Shown here in pieces: positions 1-16,815 of a stretch of DNA of 16,815 nucleotides; positions within the stretch are counted from its first letter, which is position 1, and each line of letters opens with the position of its first letter. The notes beneath the pieces were generated by a model. It ran no database searches and had not been told where the DNA came from. It was given only the letters and a program-made list of their open reading frames with translations. This stretch comes from Thiobacillus sp. GTDB taxonomy: Bacteria > Pseudomonadota > Gammaproteobacteria > Burkholderiales > Thiobacillaceae. Both the position numbers and the translations under genes were made by a program. The stretch lies in the NCBI GenBank assembly GCA_020216925.1, contig JAIWOL010000168.1, forward strand, positions 1 to 16,815. Direction: 5' to 3'.

Positions 1-363
1 GTCCCAGCCGAAGAAGAACAGGCCGATGAAGGTCGATTCGAGGAAGAAGGCCATCAGGCCCTCGATCGCCAGCGGCGCGCCGAAGATGTCGCCGACGTAG
101 TGCGAGTAATACGCCCAGTTGGTGCCGAACTGGAACTCCATGGTGATGCCCGTGGTGACGCCAAGCGCGAAATTGATGCCGAAGAGCTTGCCCCAGAAGC
201 GGGTCATGTCCTTGTACACCGGGCGGTTGGTGATGACGTAGGTCAGCTCCATGATGACCAGGATGAAGGCCAGGCCGATGGTCAGCGGTACGAACAGAAA
301 GTGGTACAGCGCGGTCACGGCAAATTGCAGCCTTGAAAGATCGACAAGTTCTTCAGTCAACAT
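1..363 (-). CDS. cydA: Cytochrome bd ubiquinol oxidase subunit I, N-terminal 121 residues (runs off left edge)
   Basis: Subunit I of the high-affinity quinol:O2 oxidoreductase of the inner membrane, which binds quinol and hemes b558, b595 and d. The visible part reads like the start of E. coli CydA: LSRLQFA near residue 9, [14 protein letters not shown] at 57-70 and the EFQFGTNW segment at 76-83. H21, E101 and E109 sit two residues downstream of E. coli H19, E99 and E107, which are heme or proton-path residues. The ATG at 363-361 has a strong AGGAG five bases upstream. The start overlaps the cydP stop by 11 bases, so the two are translationally coupled. The remainder, and presumably cydB, lie beyond position 1. 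Transcription probably starts at the sigma-54 promoter upstream of cydP. Confidence 0.96.
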
Positions 364-562
364 GGGCGCTCCTGGGATCGGTTGTCTGGGATTGTTGTGG
401 GTTGCTGATGCGGTCGGCGAGCGTGTCGGGATCGACGGCGACGCCATGGCCAGCAAAGAAAGCGTAGTAAAGGCCGACGATCACGACCAGCTTGATGACG
501 ATAGCCAGGGCGATTTCGCGCACAAGGCGGTGTTGCAGGCAGTCGGGGAGGTCAAGTTTCAT
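353..562 (-). CDS. cydP: Small cytochrome bd-associated membrane protein CydP
   Basis: A 69-residue protein with a short charged N-terminus, one membrane helix at about residues 17-36 ([20 protein letters not shown]) and a hydrophilic tail. It matches the family annotated as putative small subunit CydP, found just upstream of cydA in betaproteobacteria; its role in the oxidase is not firmly established. I chose the ATG at 562-560 because AGGA (573-570) lies seven bases upstream. An in-frame ATG at 568-566 would add two residues but leaves only one base to that AGGA. If the sigma-54 promoter at 580-595 starts the message near 569, the AGGA is not transcribed and the 568 start could be used as a leaderless start. 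The stop overlaps cydA by 11 bases. Confidence 0.85.
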
Positions 563-579
563 CAGCATGTCCTGATATT

Positions 580-595
580 TGCAAGCTGCGTGCCA
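580..595 (-). promoter_or_regulatory. Sigma-54 (-24/-12) promoter for cydP-cydA
   Basis: Read on the minus strand, TGGCACGCAGCTTGCA is a full match to TGGCAYRNNNNTTGCW. The -24 GG is at 594-593 and the -12 GC at 582-581, which predicts a start near 569. This is almost at the cydP start codon. A sigma-54 activator gene is transcribed divergently next to it. Confidence 0.85.
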
Positions 596-614
596 GGTAA
601 GGGCGCCAGGTCGG

Positions 615-629
615 CTAAAATAATTTTAG
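615..629. promoter_or_regulatory. Perfect 15-base palindrome in the divergent cyd/regulator gap
   Basis: CTAAAATAATTTTAG is a perfect 7-1-7 inverted repeat. Its centre is about 53 bases upstream of the predicted cydP start and 93 bases upstream of the predicted regulator start. It has no U-run in a terminator context and does not match the FNR box TTGAT-N4-ATCAA. An operator for the divergent regulator or another transcription factor is inferred from position only. Confidence 0.5.
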
Positions 630-688
630 TCAATTCAAGCAGTTGGGCTGATGAGGGCGATTGTTCGCTCCGCTGGGCATGACAAATA

Positions 689-704
689 TGGCATAGCTAT
701 TGCA
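689..704 (+). promoter_or_regulatory. Sigma-54 (-24/-12) promoter for the divergent PAS activator gene
   Basis: TGGCATAGCTATTGCA is a full match to TGGCAYRNNNNTTGCW, with GG at 690-691 and GC at 702-703. The predicted start is near 715, leaving a leader of about 26 bases before the GTG at 741. Its presence inside the longest open frame argues against the far-upstream start at 651. It implies that the activator may control its own transcription. Confidence 0.82.
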
Positions 705-711
705 AACTGCC

Positions 712-725
712 TGACAATCCTGTCA
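712..725. promoter_or_regulatory. TGACA-N4-TGTCA inverted repeat, candidate activator site
   Basis: TGACAATCCTGTCA has perfect 5-base arms, and another TGACA lies at 680-684 in a similar GC(A/C)TGACAA context. The repeat covers the predicted start of the regulator gene. It lies about 150 bases upstream of the predicted cydP start, the usual distance for a sigma-54 activator site. Function is inferred. Confidence 0.4.
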
Positions 726-740
726 TTTTGGTGCAAGGCC

Positions 741-2027
741 GTGTCTCCCGCCAACGAACTCATCAGTTTTCTCGAAACCCATCCGGACGCGCAGATTGTA
801 ATGGGCGCGGATTACCGAATCCTGGCGGCCAACGCGGCATATCGCCGCATCTACTCGGGCGGCCGCGATGTGGTCGGCCAGTTCTGCTATGCCGTGTCGC
901 ACGGCTATGACCGGCCGTGCGACGAATGCGGCGAATCCTGTCCCATGGCGGCCAGCCGAAACAACGGCGAACCGGCCCGGGTCCTGCATCTGCATCATAC
1001 GCCGCGTGGCGAGGAACACGTCGACGTCGAACTGAGCCCCATCGTGGGCGCCAGCGGCAGCATCGAGTATTTCGTCGAGCGCATGACCACGGTGCGCGAG
1101 GCCAGCAGCCTGCCTGCCGAAAGCGGGCTGGTCGGCAAATCACCCGCCTTCAACCATATGCTGGAACTGGTCAGGCGGGTGGCCCCCGCGCAGACCACCG
1201 CGCTGCTGCTGGGCGAGTCGGGCACCGGCAAGGAACTGGTGGCGCATGCCATCCACCAGCAAAGCGGCCGCGAACACGCGCCCTTCGTGGTGGTGGAATG
1301 TTCCGGCCTCACCGAAACCCTGTTCGAGAACGAGCTCTTTGGCCACGAAAAAGGTGCGTTCACCGGCGCCAGCCAGAAAAAGGTCGGACTGGTGGAGGCG
1401 GCGTCCGGCGGCACGCTTTTTCTGGACGAGGTGGGCGATATTCCGCTGTCGCTCCAGGTAAAACTCCTGCGCTTGCTGGAATCGGGCACTTTCCGGCGGG
1501 TGGGCGGCGTGGACACCCTGCGGGCGGATTTTCGCCTGGTGGCCGCCACCCACCGCGACCTCAAGGCCATGGTCGAAACCGGCGCGTTCCGCCGCGACCT
1601 CTACTACCGGCTGAGCGTGTTCCCCATCGAGCTGCCTGCCTTGCGCGAACGTCGGGAAGACATCGACCTCCTGGCCGACACCCTGCTGACGCGGCTCGCG
1701 CCCGGCCGGGCCTACACCCTCGCCGCGTCCACGCGCTCACGGCTGCGGGCCTACGATTTTCCCGGCAACATCCGCGAACTGCGCAACATCCTCGAACGCG
1801 CCATGCTCATGGCCGACGGCGATACCTTGCTGCCCGAGCACCTGCCGCGCGACGTGGGCGGCCGCGCAAGCGCCGACCTGCCGGCGGCGACGGATGACGT
1901 GGTGTCGCTGGAGGTGGCCGAGCGGCGCTACCTGCTGTGGGCGTTGAATCGCCTGGACGGCGATCGCAAGGCGCTGGCGCGCCAGCTTGGCATCAGCGAA
2001 CGCACGCTTTACCGCAAACTGGCCTGA
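741..2027 (+). CDS. Sigma-54-dependent activator with Cys/His-rich PAS domain
   Basis: A 428-residue bacterial enhancer-binding protein. Residues 5-115 form a PAS-like sensor domain. It carries an unusual cluster, C49-x4-H54-x5-C60-x2-C63-x3-C67 followed by P, which looks able to hold metal or an Fe-S centre. Residues 129-370 are the AAA+ sigma-54 interaction domain, with Walker A GESGTGKE (158-165), GAFTGA (205-210), Walker B GGTLFLDE (223-230) and the arginine-rich RERRED segment (302-307). A Fis-type helix-turn-helix closes the protein (408-426). There is no response-regulator receiver domain, so the signal is probably sensed directly. The GTG start is chosen because the open frame from 651 would include the sigma-54 promoter at 689-704; AAGG lies just upstream of the GTG. 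The gene diverges from cydP-cydA, its most likely target. Confidence 0.9.
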   Translation: MSPANELISFLETHPDAQIVMGADYRILAANAAYRRIYSGGRDVVGQFCYAVSHGYDRPCDECGESCPMAASRNNGEPARVLHLHHTPRGEEHVDVELSPIVGASGSIEYFVERMTTVREASSLPAESGLVGKSPAFNHMLELVRRVAPAQTTALLLGESGTGKELVAHAIHQQSGREHAPFVVVECSGLTETLFENELFGHEKGAFTGASQKKVGLVEAASGGTLFLDEVGDIPLSLQVKLLRLLESGTFRRVGGVDTLRADFRLVAATHRDLKAMVETGAFRRDLYYRLSVFPIELPALRERREDIDLLADTLLTRLAPGRAYTLAASTRSRLRAYDFPGNIRELRNILERAMLMADGDTLLPEHLPRDVGGRASADLPAATDDVVSLEVAERRYLLWALNRLDGDRKALARQLGISERTLYRKLA

Positions 2028-2033
2028 ACGGAT

Positions 2034-2759
2034 TCAGACATCGTCGGTGTTGAGCTTGCGCCGGATGACCGGCAGCGCGCCGCCGCATTCCTGGATGTCG
2101 TCGGGCAGGGTGTAAAACCACATCTGCCACATCGACACAACCCACTGCACCGCGAACGAAATGCCCATGAGCACGCCGCTTATGATGATGAACCAGGCAA
2201 AGCCGGGAAACATCTTGGTGAGGTACCACGAGAAAATATCGGTGATGATGGTGAGGAAGGGCAGCACGATCACCGCGCATTTCAGCCACAGCGGCTTCAT
2301 GTAGGCGTGGGCAAAAATGCTGCTCACGATGAAGAAAATGAAGGTGATGCCGAACAGGTGGATGTGCGAGACGCGCACCAGCGTCGGGATCGTCGCGCCC
2401 TCGTCCTTTTGCGTGAGCTTGCCGATTTTCTCATACGACGTGAGCCTGGGCAGGTGCGGGTTGCTGCCGTCGTGGCAGGCCAGGCAGCGCGACTCGACGA
2501 TGGGCTTGACCTTTTCCGCGTAACCGGCCTCTTTCGCGCCGTCTTTCACCCACGAAAAGATCACGTTGCGCTCTTCCGGCGGCAGCATGTCGGCCATGGG
2601 GCCTTTGAGCGCCGTCTCCAGGCGGGTGTCGCTTTCGCTGCCGTGGTAGGCGGTGCGAATGTCCTGGGCCGATACCGAACCGGGGTTGCCGTCCAGCCCG
2701 TAGACCATGCGCATCGACATCGGCAGGGCACTGAAATGATAGAAATGGCGGCTGCTCAT
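2034..2759 (-). CDS. Membrane-bound c-type cytochrome, three C-terminal helices, no visible signal peptide
   Basis: A 241-residue protein with one heme c site, CLACH (92-96), in a roughly 125-residue soluble N-terminal part. Three hydrophobic helices follow at about 131-151, 158-178 and 186-212. H132 and H134 at the top of the first helix could bind heme or quinone, which is speculative. The ATG at 2759-2757 has GGAAAG upstream; the longer frame to 2825 adds 22 hydrophilic residues and no signal sequence. Heme attachment occurs in the periplasm, yet no signal peptide or N-terminal helix is visible: the sequence passes from SMRMVYG straight into polar LDGNPGS, where I would expect an anchor. 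It lies 31 bases downstream of the lipoprotein cytochrome, presumably in one operon, and ends six bases from the regulator stop. The exact electron partner is unknown. Confidence 0.8.
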   Translation of the reverse strand: MSSRHFYHFSALPMSMRMVYGLDGNPGSVSAQDIRTAYHGSESDTRLETALKGPMADMLPPEERNVIFSWVKDGAKEAGYAEKVKPIVESRCLACHDGSNPHLPRLTSYEKIGKLTQKDEGATIPTLVRVSHIHLFGITFIFFIVSSIFAHAYMKPLWLKCAVIVLPFLTIITDIFSWYLTKMFPGFAWFIIISGVLMGISFAVQWVVSMWQMWFYTLPDDIQECGGALPVIRRKLNTDDV

Positions 2760-2790
2760 GCGGGATCTTTCCGTCGGAGATTGCAGGGTT

Positions 2791-3165
2791 TCAGTATCTG
2801 GCGCCTTGGTCGATCCACCCGGCAATCAGCTTCACCTCGGCCTCGGGCAGCGCGGCCTGGCCGTGCGGCATTCTGATCGACGGGTCGGCCTGGCCGGACA
2901 CCAGACGGTAGAGCGTGCTGGAGACGCTGGAGCCCGCCACCACCACCGGACCGAACTTGGTGCCCTTCATCATCGCGTCGTAGCTGTCTAGCCGCAGACC
3001 CGATTTTTCGTAGCCGGGGCCGCCCGGCACATGACAGGACACGCACTTGGCGTCCAGCAGCGGCTTGATGTTGCCCTGGTAGGTAAGACCGGGTTCCCCG
3101 CTGCACCCGGACAGGGCAAAGAGGGCAAGCGCAGACAGTGCAAGGGTGGATAGCGGTGCATTCAT
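2791..3165 (-). CDS. Lipoprotein mono-heme cytochrome c
   Basis: A 124-residue protein with a lipoprotein signal peptide and lipobox LSGC, giving lipidated C21. It has a single heme c motif CVSCH (41-45) and a probable distal methionine in SIRMPHG near residue 99. The N-terminal YQGNIKPLLDAKC stretch and the closing EVKLIAGWIDQGA resemble the small cytochrome c domain also seen in planctomycete-type cytochromes. It should sit in the periplasm attached to a membrane and pass electrons, probably to or from the membrane cytochrome encoded next. I chose the ATG at 3165-3163 because the signal peptide begins there; the longer frame to 3213 adds 16 polar residues in front of it. A weak AGAG precedes the start. 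Transcription probably begins at a sigma-70-like promoter about 40 bases upstream. Confidence 0.88.
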   Translation of the reverse strand: MNAPLSTLALSALALFALSGCSGEPGLTYQGNIKPLLDAKCVSCHVPGGPGYEKSGLRLDSYDAMMKGTKFGPVVVAGSSVSSTLYRLVSGQADPSIRMPHGQAALPEAEVKLIAGWIDQGARY

Positions 3166-3213
3166 AATGAGCTCTTGGTTAGGTGTCGGCCGGTTGTCGA
3201 TGAACACAAGCAA

Positions 3214-3242
3214 ATGCTAATAGAGCCGGCGTGCAAAATCAA
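3214..3242 (-). promoter_or_regulatory. Possible sigma-70 promoter of the two cytochrome genes
   Basis: On the minus strand, TTGATT (3242-3237) and TAGCAT (3219-3214) are separated by 17 bases, each matching four of six consensus positions. The predicted start is about 42 bases before the lipoprotein ATG. The match is moderate only. Confidence 0.4.
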
Positions 3243-3274
3243 GAGTTAAATATCCTATTTGTGTGTTTTTGCGC

Positions 3275-3314
3275 AAAAAAATGTGGCGCCGACCCGTCGC
3301 CGGGTGGGCGCCAC
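3275..3314 (-). terminator. Rho-independent terminator of acnA
   Basis: In the minus-strand direction, GTGGCGCC plus most of CACCCG pairs with CGGGTC plus GGCGCCAC around a GCGA tetraloop (hairpin 3314-3283, one mismatch). A run of seven T follows directly (3281-3275). It lies 24 bases after the acnA stop codon and insulates the cytochrome operon from acnA read-through. Confidence 0.93.
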
Positions 3315-3337
3315 GTTGGGCAGACAGGCCTGCGCGG

Positions 3338-5995
<2,658 letters not shown>

Positions 5996-6085
5996 GGCTA
6001 TCTCGGCTAGGGATGAAACGGAAATTCAGGCAACAGGCGTGCAAATGGGGGCAGGGCGCGCGCCTCGCCGGTTTTGCGGGCTGGT

Positions 6086-7591
6086 TCAGGCCTCCCGCCG
6101 CATCTGCGGGAAGAGGATGACGTCGCGGATGCTCGGCGAATCGGTGAGCAGCATCACCAGCCGGTCGATGCCGATGCCGCAGCCGCCGGTGGGCGGCAGG
6201 CCGTGTTCCAGCGCGCGGATGAAATCGGCGTCGTAGTGCATCGCTTCCTCGTCGCCGGCCTCCTTCTGCCGCACCTGCTCCATGAAACGCTCGGCCTGGT
6301 CTTCGGCGTCGTTCAATTCGGAAAAACCGTTCGCCATTTCGCGCCCGGTGATGAACAGCTCGAAGCGCTCGGTGATGTCGGGCCGGGCATCGGAGCGGCG
6401 GGCGAGCGGCGACACTTCGGCCGGGTAGTCGATGATGAAGGTGGGCTGCATCAGCAGCGCCTCGGTTGTTTCCTCGAAAAAAGAGAGCTGCAGCCCGCCG
6501 AGACCGTCGGCAGGCCGGTACTTGGCTTTCATCGCCTGCATCTGCGTCACCAGCCAGTCGCGGTCGTTCAATTGTTCGACGCCGTACTCCGGGTGGTAGG
6601 TGCGGATGGCCTCGACGATGGTGAGCCGCGCAAACGGCTTGCCGAGGTCGATTTCGTTGCCCTGGTAAATGACCGTGGTCGAGCCGGTGGCGGCGACGGC
6701 GGCGGCGCGGAAAATGGCTTCGGTGATGTCCATGAGGTAGCGGTAATCGCGATAGGCCTCGTAGAACTCCATCATGGTGAATTCGGGGTTGTGCCGCGTC
6801 GAGAGTCCTTCGTTGCGGAAGTTGCGGTTGATCTCGAACACCTTCTCGAAACCGCCGACGACCAGGCGCTTGAGATACAGCTCCGGCGCGATGCGCAGGA
6901 ACAATTCCATGTCGAGCGCGTTGTGGTGCGTGACAAACGGCTTGGCCGCAGCCCCGCCGGGGATGGGATGCATCATCGGCGTTTCCACTTCGAGAAAGTC
7001 GCGCTCGACCATGAAGGCGCGAATCGCCTGGATGATCTTTGAGCGGCGCCTGAAGGTTTCACGCGCGTCGTCGTTGGTGATCAGATCGAGGTAACGCTGG
7101 CGGTATTTCTGTTCCTGGTCGGAAAGACCGTGGAATTTTTCCGGCAGCGGGCGCAGCGCCTTGGCGAGCAGCCGGATCGATTTGGCCTGGATGGTGAGCT
7201 CGCCCTTGTTGGTCTTGAAGAGCAGACCGGCCACGCCGAGAAAATCGCCCAAATCCCAGTGCTTGAAAGCCTCGTGCGATTCGCTGCCGGTGACGTCGTT
7301 GGACACATACACCTGGATGCGGCCGCTCATATCCTGCAGCGTGGCAAAGCTGGCCTTGCCCATCACCCGCTTCAGCATCATGCGCCCGGCAAGCTGCACT
7401 TCGACGGCTTCGGACTCCAGCGCGTCCTTGCTCTTGTCGCCGTGCGCGGCAGCCAGATGCCCGGCGTAATCCTTGCGCTCGAAATCATTGGGAAAGGCGA
7501 TACCCGCCTCGCGGATCGCGGCGAGTTTGGCGCGGCGTTCCATGATGATCTGGTTCTCGTCTAGGGCGGGGGCGGAAGTTTCAGTGTTCAT
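6086..7591 (-). CDS. lysS: Lysyl-tRNA synthetase, class II
   Basis: A 501-residue enzyme that charges tRNA-Lys with lysine using ATP. It has an N-terminal OB-fold anticodon-binding domain (roughly 60-170). The class II catalytic core follows: motif 1 around [16 protein letters not shown], motif 2 [18 protein letters not shown], and motif 3 [14 protein letters not shown] near the C-terminus. The ATG at 7591-7589 is preferred over an in-frame TTG at 7606-7604, which overlaps the toxin stop codon. No strong ribosome site is visible in the short gap after the toxin. The gene lies 11 bases downstream of a toxin-antitoxin pair in the same direction, so the autoregulated toxin-antitoxin promoter may contribute to its expression. 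No lysine riboswitch or T-box is present upstream. Confidence 0.97.
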
Positions 7592-7602
7592 GGTGGGTTG
7601 GG

Positions 7603-8037
7603 TCAATCGCCGAAATAGGCGACTTCAAGTTGGAGTTGTTGGGCAGCACGTCGCATCACGTCGTCGGCGGTCGCGATGACGCCTGAGCCAAGTCCGGATG
7701 CGGTCGCCAGATGGAGCGCATCGAGCGTGCGCAAGGGCAGCGCGGTCAGTTCGTCCATCAGGCGGAAGGCCTCGATGAAATCGGCGTCGGTGGAAGGGGC
7801 AACGCTGAGCAGGCCATTCTGGATATCGGTGCGGACTTCGTTCATCGCCGCCATTTCCTGTTCGGGATTCAGGCGGGCCTGGCGGCGTTTGCGCGCCAAG
7901 GTCGAGCGCAGCTCCACCATGGTGAGACGGCTGATATGTACCGGCCCCAGTTCGGCTAAATAGGCGTCGAACGCCTCGCTGTTGCGTTCGGGCAGGTAGC
8001 GTTTCACGAGCGCGCTGGTGTCGAGGTAGACGCGCAT
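7603..8037 (-). CDS. vapC: PIN-domain ribonuclease toxin, VapC family
   Basis: A 144-residue single PIN domain. The four acidic residues expected of the Mg2+-dependent RNase site are visible as D6 (in [10 protein letters not shown]), E42 (in MVELRS), D106 (in RTLDALHLA) and D125 or D126 (in TADDVM), so it looks intact and potentially active. Members of this family usually cut tRNA or rRNA; the target here cannot be read from sequence. Its ATG overlaps the antitoxin stop in a TGATG arrangement (one base shared), indicating translational coupling. The stop lies 11 bases before the lysS ATG. Confidence 0.92.
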
Positions 8038-8282
8038 CAGCCGCGTTCGTCGCGATCTTCGCGGATCAGGACTTCGCTCGGCACATCCTGAAACGGCATG
8101 GTGGCGCGAAACGCCGCCAACGAACGAAATGCCTTCTTGCGCGCTTCTGCCGTGGGCGCAACCGGCAAAATCCGCGCCACCGGCTCGCCGCGATTCATCA
8201 CCAGCACCTCGTCGGCGTCGGCAAACATCTGGTCCGGGTGCGACAGGCCTTCGCGGGCTTCGCGGATGGTCAGGGTTTTCAT
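8037..8282 (-). CDS. Phd/YefM-type antitoxin
   Basis: An 81-residue protein beginning MKTLTIREAREGLS, with the conserved core EVLVMNRGEPVARILP (about 25-40) of the Phd/YefM fold. That domain binds operator DNA and dimerises. The remaining C-terminal half, rich in charged residues and ending EDRDERG, would wrap the PIN toxin. It is the first gene of the pair and overlaps the toxin start by one base. Autorepression is supported by a 7-base inverted repeat surrounding the -10 box just upstream. No clear Shine-Dalgarno site precedes the ATG. Confidence 0.9.
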   Translation of the reverse strand: MKTLTIREAREGLSHPDQMFADADEVLVMNRGEPVARILPVAPTAEARKKAFRSLAAFRATMPFQDVPSEVLIREDRDERG

Positions 8283-8304
8283 GGCGCGGTCTGCGGATAT
8301 GAAT

Positions 8305-8331
8305 GTGACACGATTATAGCCCAGGTGTCAC
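8305..8331 (-). promoter_or_regulatory. Toxin-antitoxin promoter with inverted-repeat operator
   Basis: A perfect TATAAT (minus strand, 8318-8313) lies between perfect 7-base arms GTGACAC and GTGTCAC (8331-8325 and 8311-8305). The arms are where Phd-type antitoxins typically bind to repress their own promoter. No good -35 box is found at 17 bases. The start of transcription should be near 8306, about 24 bases before the antitoxin ATG. Confidence 0.72.
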
Positions 8332-8333
8332 AA

Positions 8334-8554
8334 GTCGCTGGCGAAGTCTTTACATTCGCCTGCTGCCCATCGCCCCCGGAATCGCGACGCGCGACTGCAA
8401 ACATCTCGTCGAACGGTATCGCGCGTGCAGGTGCTGCCGATGCTGCGCGCGCGCGATGGCGCACGGCAGGGCGGCGAAGCTGAGCGCAGGCAGGGTGGGG
8501 TTCATGCCCGGGTGGTCAAAAGCAGGGGGCCTCTTCGTTGTCATTTTGAACAGG
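8334..8554. other. Non-coding gap between toxin-antitoxin promoter and iron operon promoter
   Basis: About 220 GC-rich bases with short open frames on both strands but no convincing gene. A minus-strand frame from the ATG at 8505 begins like a signal peptide (LPALSFAALPCAIARA) and then loses coding character after a CG-rich run around 8450. It could be a decayed small gene. No terminator or repeat was seen. Confidence 0.4.
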
Positions 8555-8573
8555 TATGCGAATCATTTGCATT
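8555..8573 (+). promoter_or_regulatory. Fur-box-like operator of the iron-uptake operon
   Basis: The 19-base stretch TATGCGAATCATTTGCATT resembles the Fur site (interrupted GATAAT/ATCATT pattern), with GCGAATcATTtGC as its near-symmetric core. It overlaps the -35 box of the promoter that follows, a classic arrangement for Fe2+-Fur repression. The downstream receptor and reductase genes fit iron control. Confidence 0.68.
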
Positions 8574-8595
8574 AACCGGGATGTTGCGATACAGT
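8567..8595 (+). promoter_or_regulatory. Sigma-70 promoter of the iron-uptake operon
   Basis: TTGCAT (8567-8572) and TACAGT (8590-8595) are spaced by exactly 17 bases. The predicted start is near 8602, leaving a leader of about 67 bases. The -35 box lies inside the Fur-like site. Confidence 0.6.
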
Positions 8596-8668
8596 CCGCC
8601 GCTAGCAACGACCAGCCCGCCCACCGCCAGCCCGTCGTCGAATCAACACGACACGACGATTCAGGGAC

Positions 8669-10897
8669 ATGACGACACTTACCCCCCGGCGGCTGGCGGC
8701 CAGCCTGCCTTTTCTCGCGCTCGGCGCGCCTGCGGCGGCGCTGGCCGACGCCCCTGCCCAGCTCGCAACCATTCCGGTGTACGCCGAGGTCGATGATTTC
8801 GTCGCCCGCCGCGACGCGCCGACGACTCGCCTGGTGTATGGCCGCGAAGAGCTCGACCGCATGAACGAGCTGACCGTCGGCGACTACCTGCGCAAACTTC
8901 CCGGCGTGACCTTCAGCGGCCCGCCCGGCACGCCCAAGGACGTGCGCCTGCGCGGCGGCGACAAGGGGCTCACACAGATTCTCATCGACGGCGAGCCGGT
9001 TTTCGGCGGCGGCAAGGAGCGGCAGATCCAGGTCGACCGCATTCCGCTCGATCTGGTCGAGCGCGTCGAGGTCATCCGCGCGCCGTCGGCGGATACGCCC
9101 AACGAGGGGCTGCTCGGCACGATCAACATCGTGATGCGCGACGCGCCGCCACGCCGCACGGCCGGGGCGCGCGCGGTCGGCGGGCGCATTTTTGGCGAGG
9201 CGACCGATCTCGATAGCTGGAATCTTTCGGGCCATTACGGCAACGCCACCCGGCGCGCGCCGGGCGATGCCGGCCCGGTGATCCGTTACCTGCTCTCGGG
9301 CGCCGTCGGCGAACGCGCCGAATTGAAGACCAAGCGCAAGGATGAGCAAACCTTCAATGCCGCCGGAACGCGCACCGGCTACAAGCTCGAATCCGAGGAC
9401 GAACGGGTGAAGAGCGACGGGATCGATTTCAATCCGCGCGTCGAGATCGAGCTCGACCGTCACGACAAGCTGGTGATCACCGGGCTGTTCAGCCGCACCG
9501 ACGAAGACAAGATCCGCCGCACCGAACGTCAGCGCTACACCGATCCGGTCACGGCGATCAACCTCGTCGGCGATGGTGCCACCCATTCGGATGAGTCCAA
9601 GCAGCGCGACATCGCCCGGTTGCGCGCCGAGTGGCGGCGCAAGCTCGCGGGCAGCGGCGATTTCAGGCTGTTTGCCCAGACGCAAGCCGGCGACGAGGTC
9701 AAGGACGTTACCAAGCGCGATTTCAACCCGGCAGGCGCGCTCGCCAAGACCACGCTCGAAGCCGAAGAAAAGACCGAACGCGGCTGGAAACTCGGCGGCG
9801 CGCTCACCCGGCCCTGGGGCGCGCACGTGTTTTCCGCCGGTCTGGAATTCGAGGACCAGCGCCGCGACGACGCCAAGCGGGTCGTCGAGAACGGCGTTGC
9901 CAAGGCGCCGGGGCTGGGCGACACCTTCGACATCGCCGAGCAGCGCCTCGTCGCCTGGGCGCAGGATACCTGGCAGCTCGCCGACGCCCATCTGCTCACG
10001 CCAGGGCTGCGCTGGCAGCGCATCGAACGCGAGGGGGTCGACGGCGGCGGCAACGCCGTCGGCGCGGCGACCCGCACGTTCTCGCCCTCGCTGCATTACC
10101 TGTGGAATCTCACCCGCGCGACCAACCTGCGCGCGAGCGTGTCGCACACGCTCAAACCGCCCAAATTCGACGACGTCTCGCCCGTGGTCCAGACCGCGAG
10201 CGGTGCCAATTCCCTCACCAACCCGGACAAGGGCGGCACGCCGGGACTGCGGCCCGAAAAAGCGCTCGGCTACGAGCTGGGGGTCGAGCATTTCCTGCCC
10301 GGAGACGGCGGCGTGCTGGGCGTCAATGCCTTCTGGCGCGACGTCTCCGACCGCGTCGAGAAACGTACCGAGCTCGAAGCCAATGGCCGTTTCGTCGAAC
10401 GTCCGTTCAACGTCGGCGACGCCGAAATCCTGGGGCTGGAATTCGACGCCCGCCCGACGCTCGCCGTCGTCGGCCTGCCGAACCTGCGCCTGCGCTTCAA
10501 TTACACGCGCCTGTATTCCGAAGCGCGAGACCAGAAAACCGGCCTCACGACCCGCATCAAGGATCAGCCGCCCTACGTCTACAACGTCGGTTTCGACTGG
10601 AAGCTGCCCGCAGGCTGGGCGCTGGGCGCGAACTACAACTACACGCCGACCTTCCTCAAGAATCCGGCCGAACCGGCCAAACCCGACTTCGAGCCCGACC
10701 AGCGTCTGCTCGACGCCTACGTGGCGAAAAAACTTGCCAAGACCACGACCCTGCGCGTTTCCGGCGCGAACCTGCTGGATTTCGTCAAGGACAAGGACAA
10801 GCGCGAAATCAACAACGCCGGCGTGCTGACCAGGCGCACGATCGAGGCCGAGCGCGGCGGTCCGGTCGTGTTCATTGCCCTGGAGATCAAGCTATGA
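8669..10897 (+). CDS. TonB-dependent outer-membrane receptor, probable ferric-chelate uptake
   Basis: A 742-residue protein with a Sec signal peptide (cleavage probably after ALA near residue 26). TIPVYAEVDDF may serve as TonB box, and an N-terminal plug domain (about 50-160) includes the LPGVTFSG and GDKGLTQILIDGEPV segments. A long 22-strand-type barrel follows. It should import a ferric siderophore or similar chelate using energy from TonB-ExbBD, which are not in the window. The substrate cannot be told from sequence. Iron is supported by the Fur-like box upstream and by the reductase at the end of the operon. The last residues are ALEIKL, ending in leucine rather than the aromatic residue usual for barrels. 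AGGG lies close before the ATG. The stop overlaps the next start codon as ATGA. Confidence 0.93.
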   Translation: MTTLTPRRLAASLPFLALGAPAAALADAPAQLATIPVYAEVDDFVARRDAPTTRLVYGREELDRMNELTVGDYLRKLPGVTFSGPPGTPKDVRLRGGDKGLTQILIDGEPVFGGGKERQIQVDRIPLDLVERVEVIRAPSADTPNEGLLGTINIVMRDAPPRRTAGARAVGGRIFGEATDLDSWNLSGHYGNATRRAPGDAGPVIRYLLSGAVGERAELKTKRKDEQTFNAAGTRTGYKLESEDERVKSDGIDFNPRVEIELDRHDKLVITGLFSRTDEDKIRRTERQRYTDPVTAINLVGDGATHSDESKQRDIARLRAEWRRKLAGSGDFRLFAQTQAGDEVKDVTKRDFNPAGALAKTTLEAEEKTERGWKLGGALTRPWGAHVFSAGLEFEDQRRDDAKRVVENGVAKAPGLGDTFDIAEQRLVAWAQDTWQLADAHLLTPGLRWQRIEREGVDGGGNAVGAATRTFSPSLHYLWNLTRATNLRASVSHTLKPPKFDDVSPVVQTASGANSLTNPDKGGTPGLRPEKALGYELGVEHFLPGDGGVLGVNAFWRDVSDRVEKRTELEANGRFVERPFNVGDAEILGLEFDARPTLAVVGLPNLRLRFNYTRLYSEARDQKTGLTTRIKDQPPYVYNVGFDWKLPAGWALGANYNYTPTFLKNPAEPAKPDFEPDQRLLDAYVAKKLAKTTTLRVSGANLLDFVKDKDKREINNAGVLTRRTIEAERGGPVVFIALEIKL

Positions 10898-11336
10898 AAA
10901 AGTTTTTACTTGCCGCCGCGCTGATCGCGGTGAGCGTGTCGGTTCACGCCAGAGCGCTGCCCGTCGTGCCGCTCGCGCAAGCCGTCAAGGCCCCCGATGC
11001 TGCCGAAATCCGCACCGGGGGCGCGTCGCCGAAGACCTCGGCAAAAACAGGTTTCTCATCGGCGAAGGCGATACGCGTCTTGAAATCAAGGCCGGCCCCG
11101 ACTGGTATCACACCCTGCCACTCAAAACCGGGGTGTCCTACACCTTTGATGGCGTGCTGAAGCACAAAAAAGACGGTGCGCGCGAATTGCGGCTGGTGCG
11201 CGTCTGGCGCGCCGACGGCGCGCGGCTCGTGGTGCGCCGCCACGCGCAGGACGAACCGTGGAAAAAAATCGACAAGGCGCACGCCAGCGCGCCATTTTCC
11301 CTTGTCTGGCAGCCACTTCAAGGAGCAAAACCATGA
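10894..11336 (+). pseudogene. Small secreted protein of the iron operon, broken by a -1 frame change
   Basis: The ATG at 10894 opens a clear signal peptide (MKKFLLAAALIAVSVSVHARA) and continues to about residue 43 (IRTGG). In that frame the rest is junk, ending at 11160. A second frame picks up good protein sequence from about 11022: RVAEDLGKNRFLIGEGD, LEIKAGPDWYHTLPL and so on, ending with TGA at 11334-11336. One extra G in the G5 tract at 11017-11021 would join both into about 147 residues. The mature part looks like a small beta-rich, possibly OB-fold, periplasmic protein; no function is assigned. Both ends keep ATGA overlaps with neighbours, as expected of a recently intact gene. A sequencing error, true mutation or phase variation are all possible. 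Confidence 0.75.
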
Positions 11337-12142
11337 AACTCAAGTACGACACCCGCAGTTGGCACGCCTGGATCAGCGTCGTGCTCGCCGTGCCCATCGT
11401 CATCGTCGCCGTCACCGCGATCTTCATCGCCCACGACGACGCGCTCGGCACCAAGGAAATCGTGATCACGCCGTATGTGAGCTGGCTACCCGGTTACAGC
11501 GATACCGCCGTGAAAATGCAGCGCATGGAAGTCCAGACCGCGCTCGCCACCCGCGACGGCGGCCAGTGGCTCGGCACCAAGGCCGGGCTGTACCGCATCG
11601 AACAGGGCCGCGCCACGTCCGTCGAAGCGCTCGGCGGCGCCCACGTGCGCGCGTTGGTCGACACCCCCGCCGGGCTCGTCGCCGCGACCAAGAACGGCGT
11701 CTGGCTGCGGCAGGGCGAGACCTGGCAGCGCACCGCGAAAGGCGATGCGTGGAGCGCGTCGATCGGCGCAGGCGGGATGATCCACGTCGCCATGAAAGAC
11801 GTCGGCGTGCTCGTCTCGACCGACGGCGCGAGCTGGAAAAAAGACAGCGCCGCGATGGCCGCGCTCGCCGCCATGCCCGCGTCGATGGCCGAACAAAAAC
11901 CGGTCACGCTCGGCAACCTCGTCATGGATATGCACACCGGCAAGGCGTTTTTCGGCAAGGAATGGGAATGGATCTGGATCGACCTCATCGGCTTCGTCAT
12001 GGCCTTTCTCGGCGTGACCGGCGTGGTGATGTGGTGGCGCGGCGAAAAACGCCGGCGCGAGCTGGAAGCGCAGCTCGCCGCCAGCACGCCGTCGACCAGC
12101 ACTGCCGTGGCACCAGGCGCTCCGCAACCGGCGACGGTCTGA
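11333..12142 (+). CDS. PepSY-type membrane protein with propeller-like periplasmic repeats
   Basis: A 269-residue inner-membrane protein with a helix at about 12-33 and another at about 213-235. The second is preceded by MDMHTGKAFFG and ends GVTGVVMWW, a signature of PepSY-associated transmembrane proteins. The roughly 175 residues between should be periplasmic. They hold about three imperfect repeats of 36 residues (67-102, 104-139, 140-175), each with a TK.G or MKD.G turn followed by a W or Y strand, like beta-propeller blades. Such proteins accompany siderophore receptors and are thought to assist ferric-chelate reduction, but this one has two helices rather than the usual four or so. The start ATG overlaps the previous stop (ATGA) and has AGGAG seven bases upstream. 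The C-terminal tail is low-complexity. Confidence 0.85.
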   Translation: MKLKYDTRSWHAWISVVLAVPIVIVAVTAIFIAHDDALGTKEIVITPYVSWLPGYSDTAVKMQRMEVQTALATRDGGQWLGTKAGLYRIEQGRATSVEALGGAHVRALVDTPAGLVAATKNGVWLRQGETWQRTAKGDAWSASIGAGGMIHVAMKDVGVLVSTDGASWKKDSAAMAALAAMPASMAEQKPVTLGNLVMDMHTGKAFFGKEWEWIWIDLIGFVMAFLGVTGVVMWWRGEKRRRELEAQLAASTPSTSTAVAPGAPQPATV

Positions 12143-12177
12143 CACGCGCCGCACCCCGCGCCTGGCGCGCGGCGTGT
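12142..12177 (+). repeat. Strong hairpin between the PepSY gene and the reductase gene
   Basis: Outer arms ACACGC (12142-12147) and GCGTGT (12172-12177) enclose a perfect inner hairpin CGCGCC-T-GGCGCG (12157-12169). There is no T-run, so it is not a typical terminator. It could slow ribosomes or RNases between the two genes. Confidence 0.5.
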
Positions 12178-12194
12178 GACAGTCGCACCTGCCC

Positions 12195-13295
12195 ATGCTC
12201 GCCACCCTTCTCCTGCTCGCGGCGGCCGCCGCGCTTCTCGTCGTCGGCGGGCTGTTCGTCTCCGGGCTTGTGCACCACTTGCGCCGCGCGCGCAGCGAGG
12301 CCGCCCGGCTGCGCGCCCGCCGCCCGCTGCCGCTGGTCGTCATCGCCCGCCTCGAACACGGCGACGACGTGTTTTCGGTCGAGCTCGAACACGCGCAGAA
12401 AAAACGCCTGCCCGCCTTCGCACCCGGCCAGGCCTTGACGCTGCTCGTTCCCGGCACGACGCTGCGCCGGCGCTACTCGCTTGCCGCGTGGGAGAAACGT
12501 CCGCGCCGCTATCGCCTTGGCATCCGCCGCGAAGCCGACGGCGCGGCCTCGCCACGGCTCTACGATCACTTGCAGGTCGGCGCACGCATCGACGCGCTGC
12601 CGCCGGTCGGGCGCTTCGTGCTCGACCCCGCGCACGAAACCCTGGTACTGGTCGGCGGCGGCATCGGCGCGACCCCCATGCTCGCCATGCTTGACGCCGT
12701 CGCCGCGCGCCCTGGCCGACGCCGCGTCGTCTTCCACCACGCCGCGCGCCATCCTGCCGAGCTGGTCGATCTGGATCGCCTGACCGCCCTTGGCGCGCGC
12801 GCCGACTGGTTCGACTACCGACCCATCGTCTCGCGCCCCGACGCGAACTGGCGCGGCGCGGTGGGACGGCTCGCCGCCGCCGACCTGGTCGCGGGTCTCG
12901 CCGAGCCCGCGTGCGCGCACTACTATTTCTGCGCGCGCGAAACGGTGATGCGTGAGTGGATGGACGCGCTCGCCGCGCGCGGGGTGCCGGCGTCGCATCT
13001 GCACTGGGAATCTTTCGGCGGCGCGCAGAACCCCGATGCCGCCGTGTACCCGGTCGAACTCGACGGCGTCGCCCGCGAATTCGCCGGCGAGCCGAGCTTG
13101 CTGGCCGCGTTCGAGGCCTGGGGCGTGGATCTGCCCGCCGAGTGCCGCGCCGGCGAATGCGGCGCGTGCCGGGTACGGCTCGTTTCAGGCGAACTCGCCG
13201 ATTGCCAGGCGAGCCACGTGACCCTGCCGCCCGGCGAATTCCTCGCCTGCTGCAAGGTGCCGAAATCGGCGCTGGTGCTCGCACGCGTGCCGTAG
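12195..13295 (+). CDS. Membrane-anchored FAD/NAD(P)/[2Fe-2S] reductase, probable ferric-chelate reductase
   Basis: A 366-residue ferredoxin-reductase-type protein. Residues 3-27 form an N-terminal membrane helix, and the following arginine-rich stretch (30-43) suggests the rest is cytosolic. An FAD-binding barrel follows with RRYS (92-95), then an NAD(P) domain with GGGIGATPML (154-163) and YFCARE (244-249). A C-terminal plant-type [2Fe-2S] domain has C317, C322, C325 and probably C352 as ligands (ECRAGECGAC). Electrons should pass NAD(P)H to FAD to the iron-sulfur centre and on to an acceptor. In this operon a ferric chelate or heme-type substrate is the likely acceptor (inference). It begins 52 bases after the PepSY gene, beyond a strong hairpin, and has no clear ribosome site before the ATG. 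Confidence 0.88.
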   Translation: MLATLLLLAAAAALLVVGGLFVSGLVHHLRRARSEAARLRARRPLPLVVIARLEHGDDVFSVELEHAQKKRLPAFAPGQALTLLVPGTTLRRRYSLAAWEKRPRRYRLGIRREADGAASPRLYDHLQVGARIDALPPVGRFVLDPAHETLVLVGGGIGATPMLAMLDAVAARPGRRRVVFHHAARHPAELVDLDRLTALGARADWFDYRPIVSRPDANWRGAVGRLAAADLVAGLAEPACAHYYFCARETVMREWMDALAARGVPASHLHWESFGGAQNPDAAVYPVELDGVAREFAGEPSLLAAFEAWGVDLPAECRAGECGACRVRLVSGELADCQASHVTLPPGEFLACCKVPKSALVLARVP

Positions 13296-13586
13296 GGCGC
13301 CGCAGGATCGCACGGCAGCCGTTCAGCATCGGCCATGTTGCGCGCACGCATGGGCTGCGGCTGGGCATAATCGGGTGCGCTGGTGCAGAATGCGGGCATG
13401 CGCGTGTGTTGCCTGCCCGACGAAATGACACCCCTGCCACTGAAAAAACACGAAACCTGAACGCGCTTTCAGTTGCGCGCAACGCGGCGCAGGGCAGGTC
13501 GCGCAGACGGGTCTTGCCTGCCAAGACAGCAGATATGGAATCCCTATGAAGCACATGGCCTGTTTATTCGTTACGGTGATGCGCCT
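13296..13586. other. Intergenic region upstream of recQ
   Basis: No gene is supported here. TGCCGT (13288-13293) and ACGGCA (13312-13317) could pair just after the reductase stop, but there is no T-run, so termination is uncertain. The part from about 13430 to 13586 presumably holds the recQ promoter and leader; no clean -35/-10 pair was found. Confidence 0.4.
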
Positions 13587-15383
<1,797 letters not shown>

Positions 15384-15730
15384 GGGTGCCTCCCCTTGCA
15401 GTGGCACAACCGGATGCTGGAGAGGCCGCTTGATTCCGTTCAGTTTGTTGTCAAAAATGCCAACATGCAGGTCGAACTGCTCAAGCAGCACCGCCAGCGC
15501 CTGCCCAACGGCGGGCTGGTCGAGATGAAAATCCGAAAACCCGCCATCAAAAAAAGGTGGGCGGGAAGGTGTTCGCGCTTGATTACGGTCGGCTAATGGG
15601 TGACCCCATTGATTCTCTCAGCTGAATGTGTCGCCTCAAGTATGGCTTTGTCGATAGCGACTTTGTGGTCGGCTGTGGCCGAACATTCGCCACTCTTGCG
15701 CCCAGAAAGCTGATGCCGCAGCTTCTGCGA
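15384..15730. other. Intergenic region between recQ and pepN
   Basis: This 347-base gap separates convergent genes. It holds a probable toxin-gene fragment (15465-15625), an A7 tract at 15549-15555 lying between CCCGCC and GGGCGGG, and a 6-base inverted repeat AATGGG/CCCATT at 15595-15610. No clear bidirectional terminator is visible. Base composition is a little lower in GC than the flanking genes, which would fit decayed inserted DNA. Confidence 0.45.
15465..15625 (+). pseudogene. Possible remnant of a TumE-like (DUF6516) toxin gene
   Basis: From the ATG at 15465 the frame reads MQVELLKQHRQRLPNGGLVEM and then KIRKP. This resembles the start of TumE-family proteins (a short basic strand, then (D/N)G-x-(V/I)VEM). 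Family members are normally about 100 residues; here the likeness ends after roughly 27 residues and the frame stops at 15596. Moving to the +1 frame at the A7 tract (15549-15555) continues for about 24 residues (VGGKVFALDYGRLMGDP...) to a TGA at 15623-15625, but that part is not clearly homologous. No partner antitoxin gene is seen. The family assignment is from pattern memory only. Confidence 0.3.
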
Positions 15731-16815
15731 TCAGCCCGCCAGCGCATTCCCCACCACCTCCGCCACATCCTTCGCCAGCCCTTCGACCGCCGCGATGCGC
15801 TCGAGCGCGGCGCGCGCGCGCGTCTGCCGTCCGGCGTCGAACTGGCGCCAGCGGTCGAAGCTGCGGGCGAGGCGTGAGGCCACCTGCGGGTTGATGGCCT
15901 GGAGTTCATTGATGACGTCGGCGGCGAGGGCGTAGCCTGTGCCGTCGGCGGCGTGGAAGGCGCGCGGGTTGCCGCCGGTAAAGCCGCGGATGAGGGCGTA
16001 GACGCGGTTGGGGTTTTTCAGGTCGAACGCGGGGTGGCGCGTGAGTTCGCGCACACTGGCGGCGGTGGACAGACGCGCGGTGGCCTGGATGGCCAGCCAT
16101 TTGTCGACGACCAGGGCCTCGTCTTTCCATTTGTCGTAAAAGGCGGTGAGCACGGGCGCGCGTTCGGGCACATCGAGCTGGGCCAGGGTGGCGAGCGCGG
16201 CGGCGACGTCGGTCATGTTGCCGCCGGTTTGGATCTGCGCGACGAGGCGCGGGGCGATCTCGGCCGGCGCGGCGTCGGCGAGATAGGCGAGACAGGTGTT
16301 GCGCAAGGCGCGGCGGCCCGCCTGTTCGCCGTCGGGCGCGTAGTCGCGCGTGGGGGCGAGCGCGTGCCAGGCGGCTTCGAACCGTGGGCGCAAGGCCTGC
16401 GCGAGCGCGCGGCGCAGGGCCAGCCGGGCGGCAAAGATCGCGTCGGGGTCGATGACGCTGCCTGCGGCGGCCACGGTGTCGGCGAGCACGGTTTCGGACG
16501 GCAGGGCCAGCGCCTCGGCGGCGAGCGCGGCGTCGCCGTCGATGCCGTCCTGGAGTACGCGGGCGCAGGCGTCGATGAAGGTGGGGGGAATCCAGTTGTC
16601 GCCCGCGCCGCCTTGCGCCATGCCCGCGAGCAGCACGCGCGTGGCAAGTCGCTGGCCGGCTTCCCAGCGGTTGAAGGCATCGGCATCGAACGCCATCAGG
16701 TGGGCAAGTTCAAAGTCGGTCTGCCCGAATTCCAGCCGCACCGGGGCGGAGAAGTTGCGCAGCAGCGAGGCGACGGGGGCGGCGGGCACGCGCTCGAAGA
16801 CGAAGGTTTGCGTGG
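15731..16815 (-). CDS. pepN: Aminopeptidase N, C-terminal 361 residues (runs off right edge)
   Basis: The C-terminal part of an M1-family zinc aminopeptidase N, a cytosolic enzyme that removes N-terminal residues from peptides. The catalytic GAMEN and HEXXH region lies beyond the right edge. The visible part covers the end of the beta domain (TQTFVFERVPAAPVASLLRNFSAPVRLEF) and the helical C-terminal domain. It tracks E. coli PepN closely: ALRNTCLAYLA, NMTDVAAALATLAQLD, YDKWKDEALVVDKWLAIQAT, NPNRVYALIRGFTGGNPRAFHAADGTGYAL and NPQVASRLARSFDRW. The stop codon is at 15733-15731. The frame remains open through position 16815, so an apparent GTG start at 16789 is only an internal valine. Confidence 0.96.
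   Translation of the reverse strand, partial: TQTFVFERVPAAPVASLLRNFSAPVRLEFGQTDFELAHLMAFDADAFNRWEAGQRLATRVLLAGMAQGGAGDNWIPPTFIDACARVLQDGIDGDAALAAEALALPSETVLADTVAAAGSVIDPDAIFAARLALRRALAQALRPRFEAAWHALAPTRDYAPDGEQAGRRALRNTCLAYLADAAPAEIAPRLVAQIQTGGNMTDVAAALATLAQLDVPERAPVLTAFYDKWKDEALVVDKWLAIQATARLSTAASVRELTRHPAFDLKNPNRVYALIRGFTGGNPRAFHAADGTGYALAADVINELQAINPQVASRLARSFDRWRQFDAGRQTRARAALERIAAVEGLAKDVAEVVGNALAG

Follow-up and report, generated by a model that had tools for sequence, protein, structure and literature searches.

A predicted sigma54 control region between a FisR-type activator gene and the cytochrome bd operon of a Thiobacillus genome

From comparative sequence analysis we consider it likely that sulfane sulfur, and not oxygen, switches on the cytochrome bd oxidase of a Thiobacillus species, by way of a FisR-type activator and sigma54, and that the gap between the two genes is a one-way sigma54 control region. 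In the mechanism that we infer, as regards ligand, direction of regulation, the part played by IHF, autoregulation and the sulfide resistance of this enzyme, the oxidation of sulfide would yield sulfane sulfur, as persulfide or polysulfide, which would modify or cross-link PAS-domain cysteines C49, C60 and C67 and thereby release the ATPase of the activator. Bound to two palindromes (680–693 and 712–725), which precede the cyd start by roughly 118 and 150 bp and share one face of the helix, the activator would meet RNA polymerase-sigma54 at 580–595 through a DNA bend, probably via IHF, and the promoter would be opened; the cydP-cydA-cydB(-cydX) oxidase, whose kind is not subject to sulfide inhibition in E. 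coli, would then carry respiration. The activator itself would probably be expressed from a sigma70-type promoter overlapped by its own sites, which would amount to negative autoregulation, and the second FisR of the genome would act on a sulfide:quinone oxidoreductase (SQR) gene, likewise from a sigma54 promoter. What the sequences themselves show is the elements, their conservation, the family membership of the activator and the gene linkage.

The gap and the cyd-facing element

The window, by which we mean the whole stretch of DNA analysed, comprises positions 1–16,815 of the forward strand of contig JAIWOL010000168.1 (Thiobacillus sp., GCA_020216925.1; assembly of 2.04 Mb, 84.6% complete). 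Two genome sets, one of 100 related genomes, 58 of which match the PAS region (E ≤ 0.001), and the other a named genome collection (78 loci), both place it in the Thiobacillus group. The minus strand carries the 5′ part of cydA (1–363; PF01654, 1e-58), which runs off the contig; contig C123 starts with a 92-nt overlap and holds the remaining cydA, cydB (TIGR00203) and cydX (TIGR02106), the last two above cut-off, together with an extra ORF of 135 aa without an NCBIfam match. A Shine-Dalgarno-like AGGAG precedes cydA (369–373, minus strand), and upstream lies cydP, encoding a small bd-associated subunit of 69 aa (353–562, minus strand; NF045611, above cut-off) when read from ATG 562, with ATG 568 as an alternative; most aligned relatives have ATGAA at the position of the cydP start. 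Across the gap, the plus strand encodes an activator of 428 aa (741–2,027), for which GTG 741 is a fitting start, while ATG 651 would place the plus-strand element described below within the gene. Both flanking genes are as the initial annotation had described them, cydP-cydA on the minus strand and a sigma-54 activator on the plus strand; the activator has a PAS domain, a sigma54-activation domain carrying GAFTGA and a Fis-type helix-turn-helix.

The two full TGGCAYRNNNNTTGCW matches reported there for this one gap were also found, each with 0 mismatches: TGGCACGCAGCTTGCA at 580–595 of the minus strand, which is the predicted sigma54 -24/-12 promoter of cydP-cydA, and TGGCATAGCTATTGCA at 689–704 of the plus strand, a -24/-12-like match facing the activator. 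Counting both strands, the assembly contains eight perfect matches, two of them in this gap, and one match to the reversed pattern. In a control in which the 320 bp preceding each of 22 related activators were dinucleotide-shuffled, a perfect match occurred in a mean of 0.00 loci per strand and a match with at most one mismatch in 0.12; in the window, matches with two mismatches are not enriched (8 found, 7.2 expected). As judged by comparison with relatives, the two elements are unequal, the cyd-facing one being conserved and the activator-facing one perfect in this genome only.

From the usual sigma54 spacing, the cyd transcript is predicted to start at 569 (minus strand), 12 nt after the C of the -12 element. 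The predicted cydP leader, about 7 nt long (in relatives 1–11 nt by manual reckoning), would leave no room for a ribosome site, and the cydP message in Thiobacillus may be nearly leaderless when translated.

A scan of related genomes for conservation of the cyd-facing element, counted when it had at most one mismatch and faced away from the activator, found it in 20 of the 22 loci with at least 70% activator identity (the Thiobacillus-type loci, window included), in 27/38 loci at 54–70% and in 14/18 at 43–54%, against shuffle expectations of 0.12, 0.36 and 0.08. Elements of the same quality directed towards the activator occur in 2/22, 1/38 and 1/18 loci. Thiobacillus thioparus DSM 505 (L042, whose match scores are identical to those of L016) has the gene pair, the cyd-facing element with one mismatch, and two of the palindromes described below. 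Excluded before these counts were loci whose upstream sequence was shorter than 320 bp, duplicate entries for a single genome, and activator matches starting beyond residue 25; a separate scan used a start limit of residue 30 and 50% identity. In the middle group 11/38 loci are without an element of at most one mismatch, and the two misses in the closest group are L021, which has two mismatches, and L013. The latter holds an orphan activator, 81% identical, in a genome that is 99% complete and has no cydA match; upstream of it there is neither a promoter with up to two mismatches nor an exact palindrome of the kind discussed below.

The reverse survey started from cydA and covered the best 30 of 53 matches, 24 of which have a FisR-type activator as neighbour (identity 59% or more). 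The element is present in 23 of the 24 loci adjoining such an activator, window included, the sole exception (L164) having two mismatches, as L021 does; it is present in 0/5 cydA loci without an activator in the available sequence (L149, L167, L171, L172 and L173; that of L171 extends 559 bp upstream). These tallies were read by eye. L149 is a cydP-cydA locus of a congener, whose CydA is 98% identical across its first 121 residues; the activator is not adjacent, and the 900 bp upstream of cydA contain no -24/-12 match with at most one mismatch. L166, in which cydA lies beside an activator of 28% identity, lacks the element and was counted in neither group. Across 56 genomes of the genus, its own included, 22 have both the activator and this cydA, 2 the activator only, 1 cydA only and 31 neither, as read by eye from matches at E ≤ 1e-38 (activator) and E ≤ 1e-40 (cydA), weaker matches being uncounted. 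The cyd-facing match has the features expected of a sigma54 promoter: the -24 GG/-12 GC consensus, conservation, and an rpoN gene, which is present in the genome of the window.

The activator and its family

The activator comprises a PAS domain (residues 12–121; 774–1,103; PF08448, 5e-9), an AAA+ sigma54-activation domain with GAFTGA at residue 205 (1,128–1,631; PF00158, 7e-67) and a Fis-type helix-turn-helix (residues 390–427; 1,908–2,021; PF02954, 9e-9), all on the plus strand. Over its full length it is 56% identical to P0126, a protein of Cupriavidus pinatubonensis that NCBI names FisR. Alignment with FisR brings out a cysteine cluster in the PAS domain, C49, C60, C63 and C67 (C-x10-C-x2-C-x3-CP; 885–941, plus strand), of which C49, C60 and C67 align with C53, C64 and C71 of the C. 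pinatubonensis protein; the FisR-named proteins P0122–P0127 have cysteines at 53, 64 and 71. From the residue numbers of the FisR paper we take these three to be the regulatory cysteines, as Li reportedly described them in 2017. The triad is complete in 81/88 aligned rows, the misses being L106 and six distant sequences, and it is found in all of the 120 top homologues listed for the window protein and in all of the 120 listed for the FisR of Cupriavidus metallidurans. Among the solved structures that match the activator (35 distinct sequences, E ≤ 1e-20), none covers the PAS domain, the earliest matched stretch beginning at residue 119. In its closest relatives, proteins P0001–P0005, the PAS domains are 92–96% identical.

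By these features of its sequence, namely the PAS-type N-terminal domain, the AAA+ domain with GAFTGA, the Fis helix-turn-helix, the three regulatory cysteines and its grouping in the tree with members linked to persulfide dioxygenase (PDO) and SQR genes, the activator is a member of the FisR family, a type that the initial annotation had overlooked. Control of sulfide-oxidising genes, another mark of FisR, was not found at this locus; the divergent operon is cydP-cydA-cydB, and in our reading the target has changed while the family has not. Since FisR is a sulfane-sulfur sensor, sulfur derived from sulfide is the likely signal.

The company kept by other family members is consistent with this assignment. 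In L057 a member stands opposite PDO-, TauE- and SQR-type genes; in L130, L134, L135 and others it adjoins PDO- and SQR-type genes, and so does the member of C. metallidurans, in which the SQR-type gene matches the solved human SQR at 7e-93 and the PDO-type gene matches ETHE1 at 5e-29 (NCBIfam matches at these genes are below cut-off, and the stretch is unannotated in the record). The genome of the window itself encodes a second FisR-type activator (L109, 364–1,632, minus strand), divergent from an SQR gene (1,626–3,080, plus strand) whose match to solved SQRs extends along its entire length (9e-169). This paralogue is 46% identical to the window activator, has a perfect -24/-12 element and the same palindrome, and shows the linkage to a sulfide-oxidising gene that characterises FisR. 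An SQR of the L109 type (55–82% identity) lies beside 16 of the 20 other members labelled as SQR/PDO-linked; L141 and L143 have it codirectional with the activator, and in both L065 and L068 the SQR gene adjoins the activator. A tree of 83 rows was built without six further rows and without those shorter than 300 aa; in it, the members labelled by eye as cyd-linked (34) or SQR/PDO-linked (21) are interleaved, with 6 changes, at least 4 of them forced by well-supported branches; the Cupriavidus row sits on a long branch.

Cytochrome bd partners occur in Thiobacillus, Sideroxydans, Thiohalomonas, Steroidobacteraceae, Parasulfuritortus and Pseudoalteromonas, those of Pseudoalteromonas being annotated cydP, cydB and cydX. 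On a Pseudoalteromonas xiamenensis plasmid (L176, 445–5,263), annotated cydP, cydB, cydX and ybgE-type genes diverge from the gene of an activator of 46% identity, which has the cysteine triad. Within 500 bp, keeping GG and GC and allowing up to two mismatches, no element passed the filter in C. metallidurans or in two Pseudoalteromonas cyd loci, L176 among them, and the exact palindrome is absent from L177 (Pseudoalteromonas). Many members have neither cyd nor the sulfide genes of our panel as neighbours, and the partner opposite is in some cases CcoG, in others a TehA-like transporter with a truncated globin, or NifX/ferredoxin-like genes (the last two names assigned by eye). Related activators in L053 and L024 lie near TehA/SLAC1-type transporter genes, with a truncated globin gene also in L053. 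In L112, another perfect -24/-12 match from the genome of the window (1,255–1,270, plus strand) stands just before the likely start of a pilin-like ORF, whose N-terminus we take to be a type IV pilin-like motif; type IV pilins are a known kind of sigma54 target.

The fourth cysteine, C63 (927–929), bears on what the PAS domain might sense. It completes a CxxCxxxC cluster in 120/120 of the top homologues listed, out of 1,937 homologues of the window protein, and cytochrome bd is elsewhere under oxygen or redox control, as the initial annotation pointed out; both would suit an alternative with the same cyd-facing sigma54 switch, in which C49, C60, C63 and C67 would hold a metal or Fe-S centre and sense oxygen, NO or redox. 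We regard this alternative as improbable. An equivalent of C63 is found in 0/120 of those listed among 1,500 homologues of the C. metallidurans FisR, and the position is a cysteine in 33/88 rows, whereas C49, C60 and C67 occur together in 81/88; family members adjoin PDO, SQR and TauE genes; and three cysteines are what the characterised FisR uses to sense sulfane sulfur, according to passages of PMC9774590 and PMC8469610, the latter of which includes a tetrasulfide in the cysteine chemistry. As C63 is missing from the Cupriavidus FisR, the chemistry may nevertheless differ. Nor would the cysteines be the whole story, since the FisR of Acinetobacter is reported, in part of PMC7315123, to lack the regulatory cysteines and still to respond to sulfide. 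A more tentative extension of the sulfane-sulfur reading, which we hold to be rather unlikely, is that a FisR paralogue dedicated to bd acts as a terminal-oxidase selector, in which the CxxCxxxC site with C63 would read both sulfane sulfur and oxygen or redox, and sulfide, not low oxygen, would pick the oxidase.

Palindromes, the activator-facing match and expression of the activator

Two 14-bp palindromes of the form TGNCA-N4-TGNCA lie between the activator gene and the cyd-facing promoter, TGACAAATATGGCA at 680–693 (predicted UAS1) and TGACAATCCTGTCA at 712–725 (predicted UAS2), both given on the plus strand. Their centres fall at about -118 and -150 relative to the predicted cyd start, 32 bp or about three turns apart, and within the usual distance range for activator sites. 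The exact palindrome occurs at least once in 17/22, 21/38 and 9/18 loci of the three identity groups, against 0.19, 0.32 and 0.15 by shuffle, and in relatives its place is immediately before the activator gene. Thirteen loci have two exact copies, spaced 31–33 or 40–42 bp apart (about three or four helical turns) in 11 cases and 90 and 135 bp in the remaining two; these spacings, like the leader lengths of the relatives, were determined by hand. We read the two palindromes as putative binding sites of the activator itself. Between them and the promoter lies an IHF-like site, ATTCAAGCAGTTG (633–645, plus strand), with one mismatch to WATCAANNNNTTR, which we take to be the IHF consensus. A best match with at most one mismatch is found in 9/22 loci, about 2 being expected from shuffles; the match in the window is weak, and the evidence for a candidate IHF site is moderate.

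The activator-facing match at 689–704 fares differently in relatives. Its TGGCA coincides with the right half of UAS1, and when the Thiobacillus-type loci are aligned by the palindrome, 18 relatives have 4–8 mismatches at the corresponding position; L013, L017 and L021 gave no match to the palindrome pattern and hence no alignment there. At that position the element is confined to the window among the 22 loci, L018 having a match with one mismatch elsewhere. Loss of the element in close relatives that keep the gene pair, which the initial annotation had named as evidence against its view, is thus what was found for 689–704, and self-activation of the activator is unsupported for this reason. 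Because the TGGCA forms half of a conserved palindrome, it is best read as part of a putative binding site of the activator.

In 12/22 loci the left half of the palindrome, TGNCA, is followed after 17 (±1) bp by TANNNT, a combination found in 0.00 loci by shuffle. The overlap of palindrome and sigma70-like promoter in these 12 loci, the window not being one of them, suggests negative autoregulation. Outside the close group such an overlap is seen in 3/18 (43–54% identity) and 0/38 (54–70%) loci and is therefore not general, and the window and its sister L006 are without the sigma70-like -10 found in the 12. The lineage of the window might conceivably have undergone a late switch of activator expression to the element at 689–704.

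These results also bear on the circuit of the initial annotation, in which both elements are active, the activator drives itself from 689–704 and the response is all-or-none. The match is perfect, with TGGCA fixed and all bases equally frequent, each half-site would complete the consensus by chance with a probability of about 0.0005, and a sigma70-like -10 is missing from the window and L006; we still consider this circuit quite improbable, given that the element is missing at this place in 21 other Thiobacillus-type loci, and that UAS1 overlaps its -24 and UAS2 its predicted start, so that bound activator would presumably block the very polymerase that it should activate. The part of that proposal which is supported is the dedicated sigma54 switch of the cyd operon, whose element is kept in relatives and found in none of the five cydA loci without an activator; the self-driving activator is not. 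Fnr/Arc-type control is common for cyd operons elsewhere, and the cyd-facing element might on that ground be taken for a chance or relic match in a sigma70-dependent operon controlled in this way, a notion made scarcely credible by the conservation of the element, its position and its dependence on the presence of the activator.

Comparison with known systems

Cytochrome bd has been connected with sulfide in several organisms. The bd oxidases of E. coli are insensitive to sulfide, and respiration continues when sulfide poisons the heme-copper oxidase (excerpts of PMC4815019); cydAB is induced by sulfide in several bacteria (passages of PMC7315123). According to part of a 2022 E. coli paper, the mechanism of this induction had remained unknown, and cydAB counts are altered in a ygaV mutant (PMC9774250). 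In the open-licence PMC literature, as covered by the top matches, we found no published link between FisR and cyd or between sigma54 and cyd: the sections seen of PMC10509353, PMC12170894 and PMC8148161 name no FisR-cyd link, those on the Azoarcus NifA regulon (PMC3916325) contain nothing on sigma54 control of cydAB, and a paper on bd evolution (PMC5322542) does not mention sigma, the Fis family, sulfide or cydP. The cydA2B2 genes of Cupriavidus necator were considered as a precedent and rejected. In the relevant passages of PMC10164946, a promoter mutation is predicted to create a sigma70 promoter, and rpoN mutations cause no significant change in growth rate under CO; the case is therefore no precedent for a sigma54 switch of cyd.

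The arrangement described here would place a sensor family with a described sulfane-sulfur chemistry in command of an oxidase, in organisms that depend on reduced sulfur, and it offers defined sites and residues. The pair of activator and cyd genes occurs beyond Thiobacillus, for example in Pseudoalteromonas, there without a promoter passing our filter.

In its layout the locus resembles that of PspF in E. coli, a protein without a PAS domain whose sites overlap its own sigma70 promoter and which is subject to negative autoregulation. PspF is likewise a sigma54 activator divergent from its adjoining target, pspA (part of PMC6003685); its signal and target are different from those of the Thiobacillus activator. 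The FisR of Acinetobacter baumannii is a sigma54 activator divergent from a sulfide operon, in an organism in which cydAB is induced by sulfide, but it is tied to pdo1-sqr-tauE and not to cydAB, and among all cydAB passages in the main text of PMC7315123 none links cydAB to FisR. Regulators that do connect cyd with sulfide are the repressors CydE (GbsR type; PMC6096048) and CioR (MarR family; PMC11837568) and the SqrR/BigR homologue YgaV (PMC9774250). Like the Thiobacillus activator as we propose it, these regulate a cytochrome bd that protects against sulfide or is induced by it, but the portions consulted of these papers describe none of them as a sigma54 activator. There is a close likeness to the FisR of C. 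pinatubonensis, with the same order of PAS, AAA+ and Fis helix-turn-helix, 56% identity, three aligned cysteines and sigma54 dependence; that protein targets sulfide-oxidising genes, whereas the predicted target in Thiobacillus is cytochrome bd, and the Thiobacillus activator has the extra cysteine C63. Taken singly, FisR, control by sigma54 and bd oxidases that resist sulfide are all known; their direct wiring, as predicted here, would constitute a new target for a known sensor.
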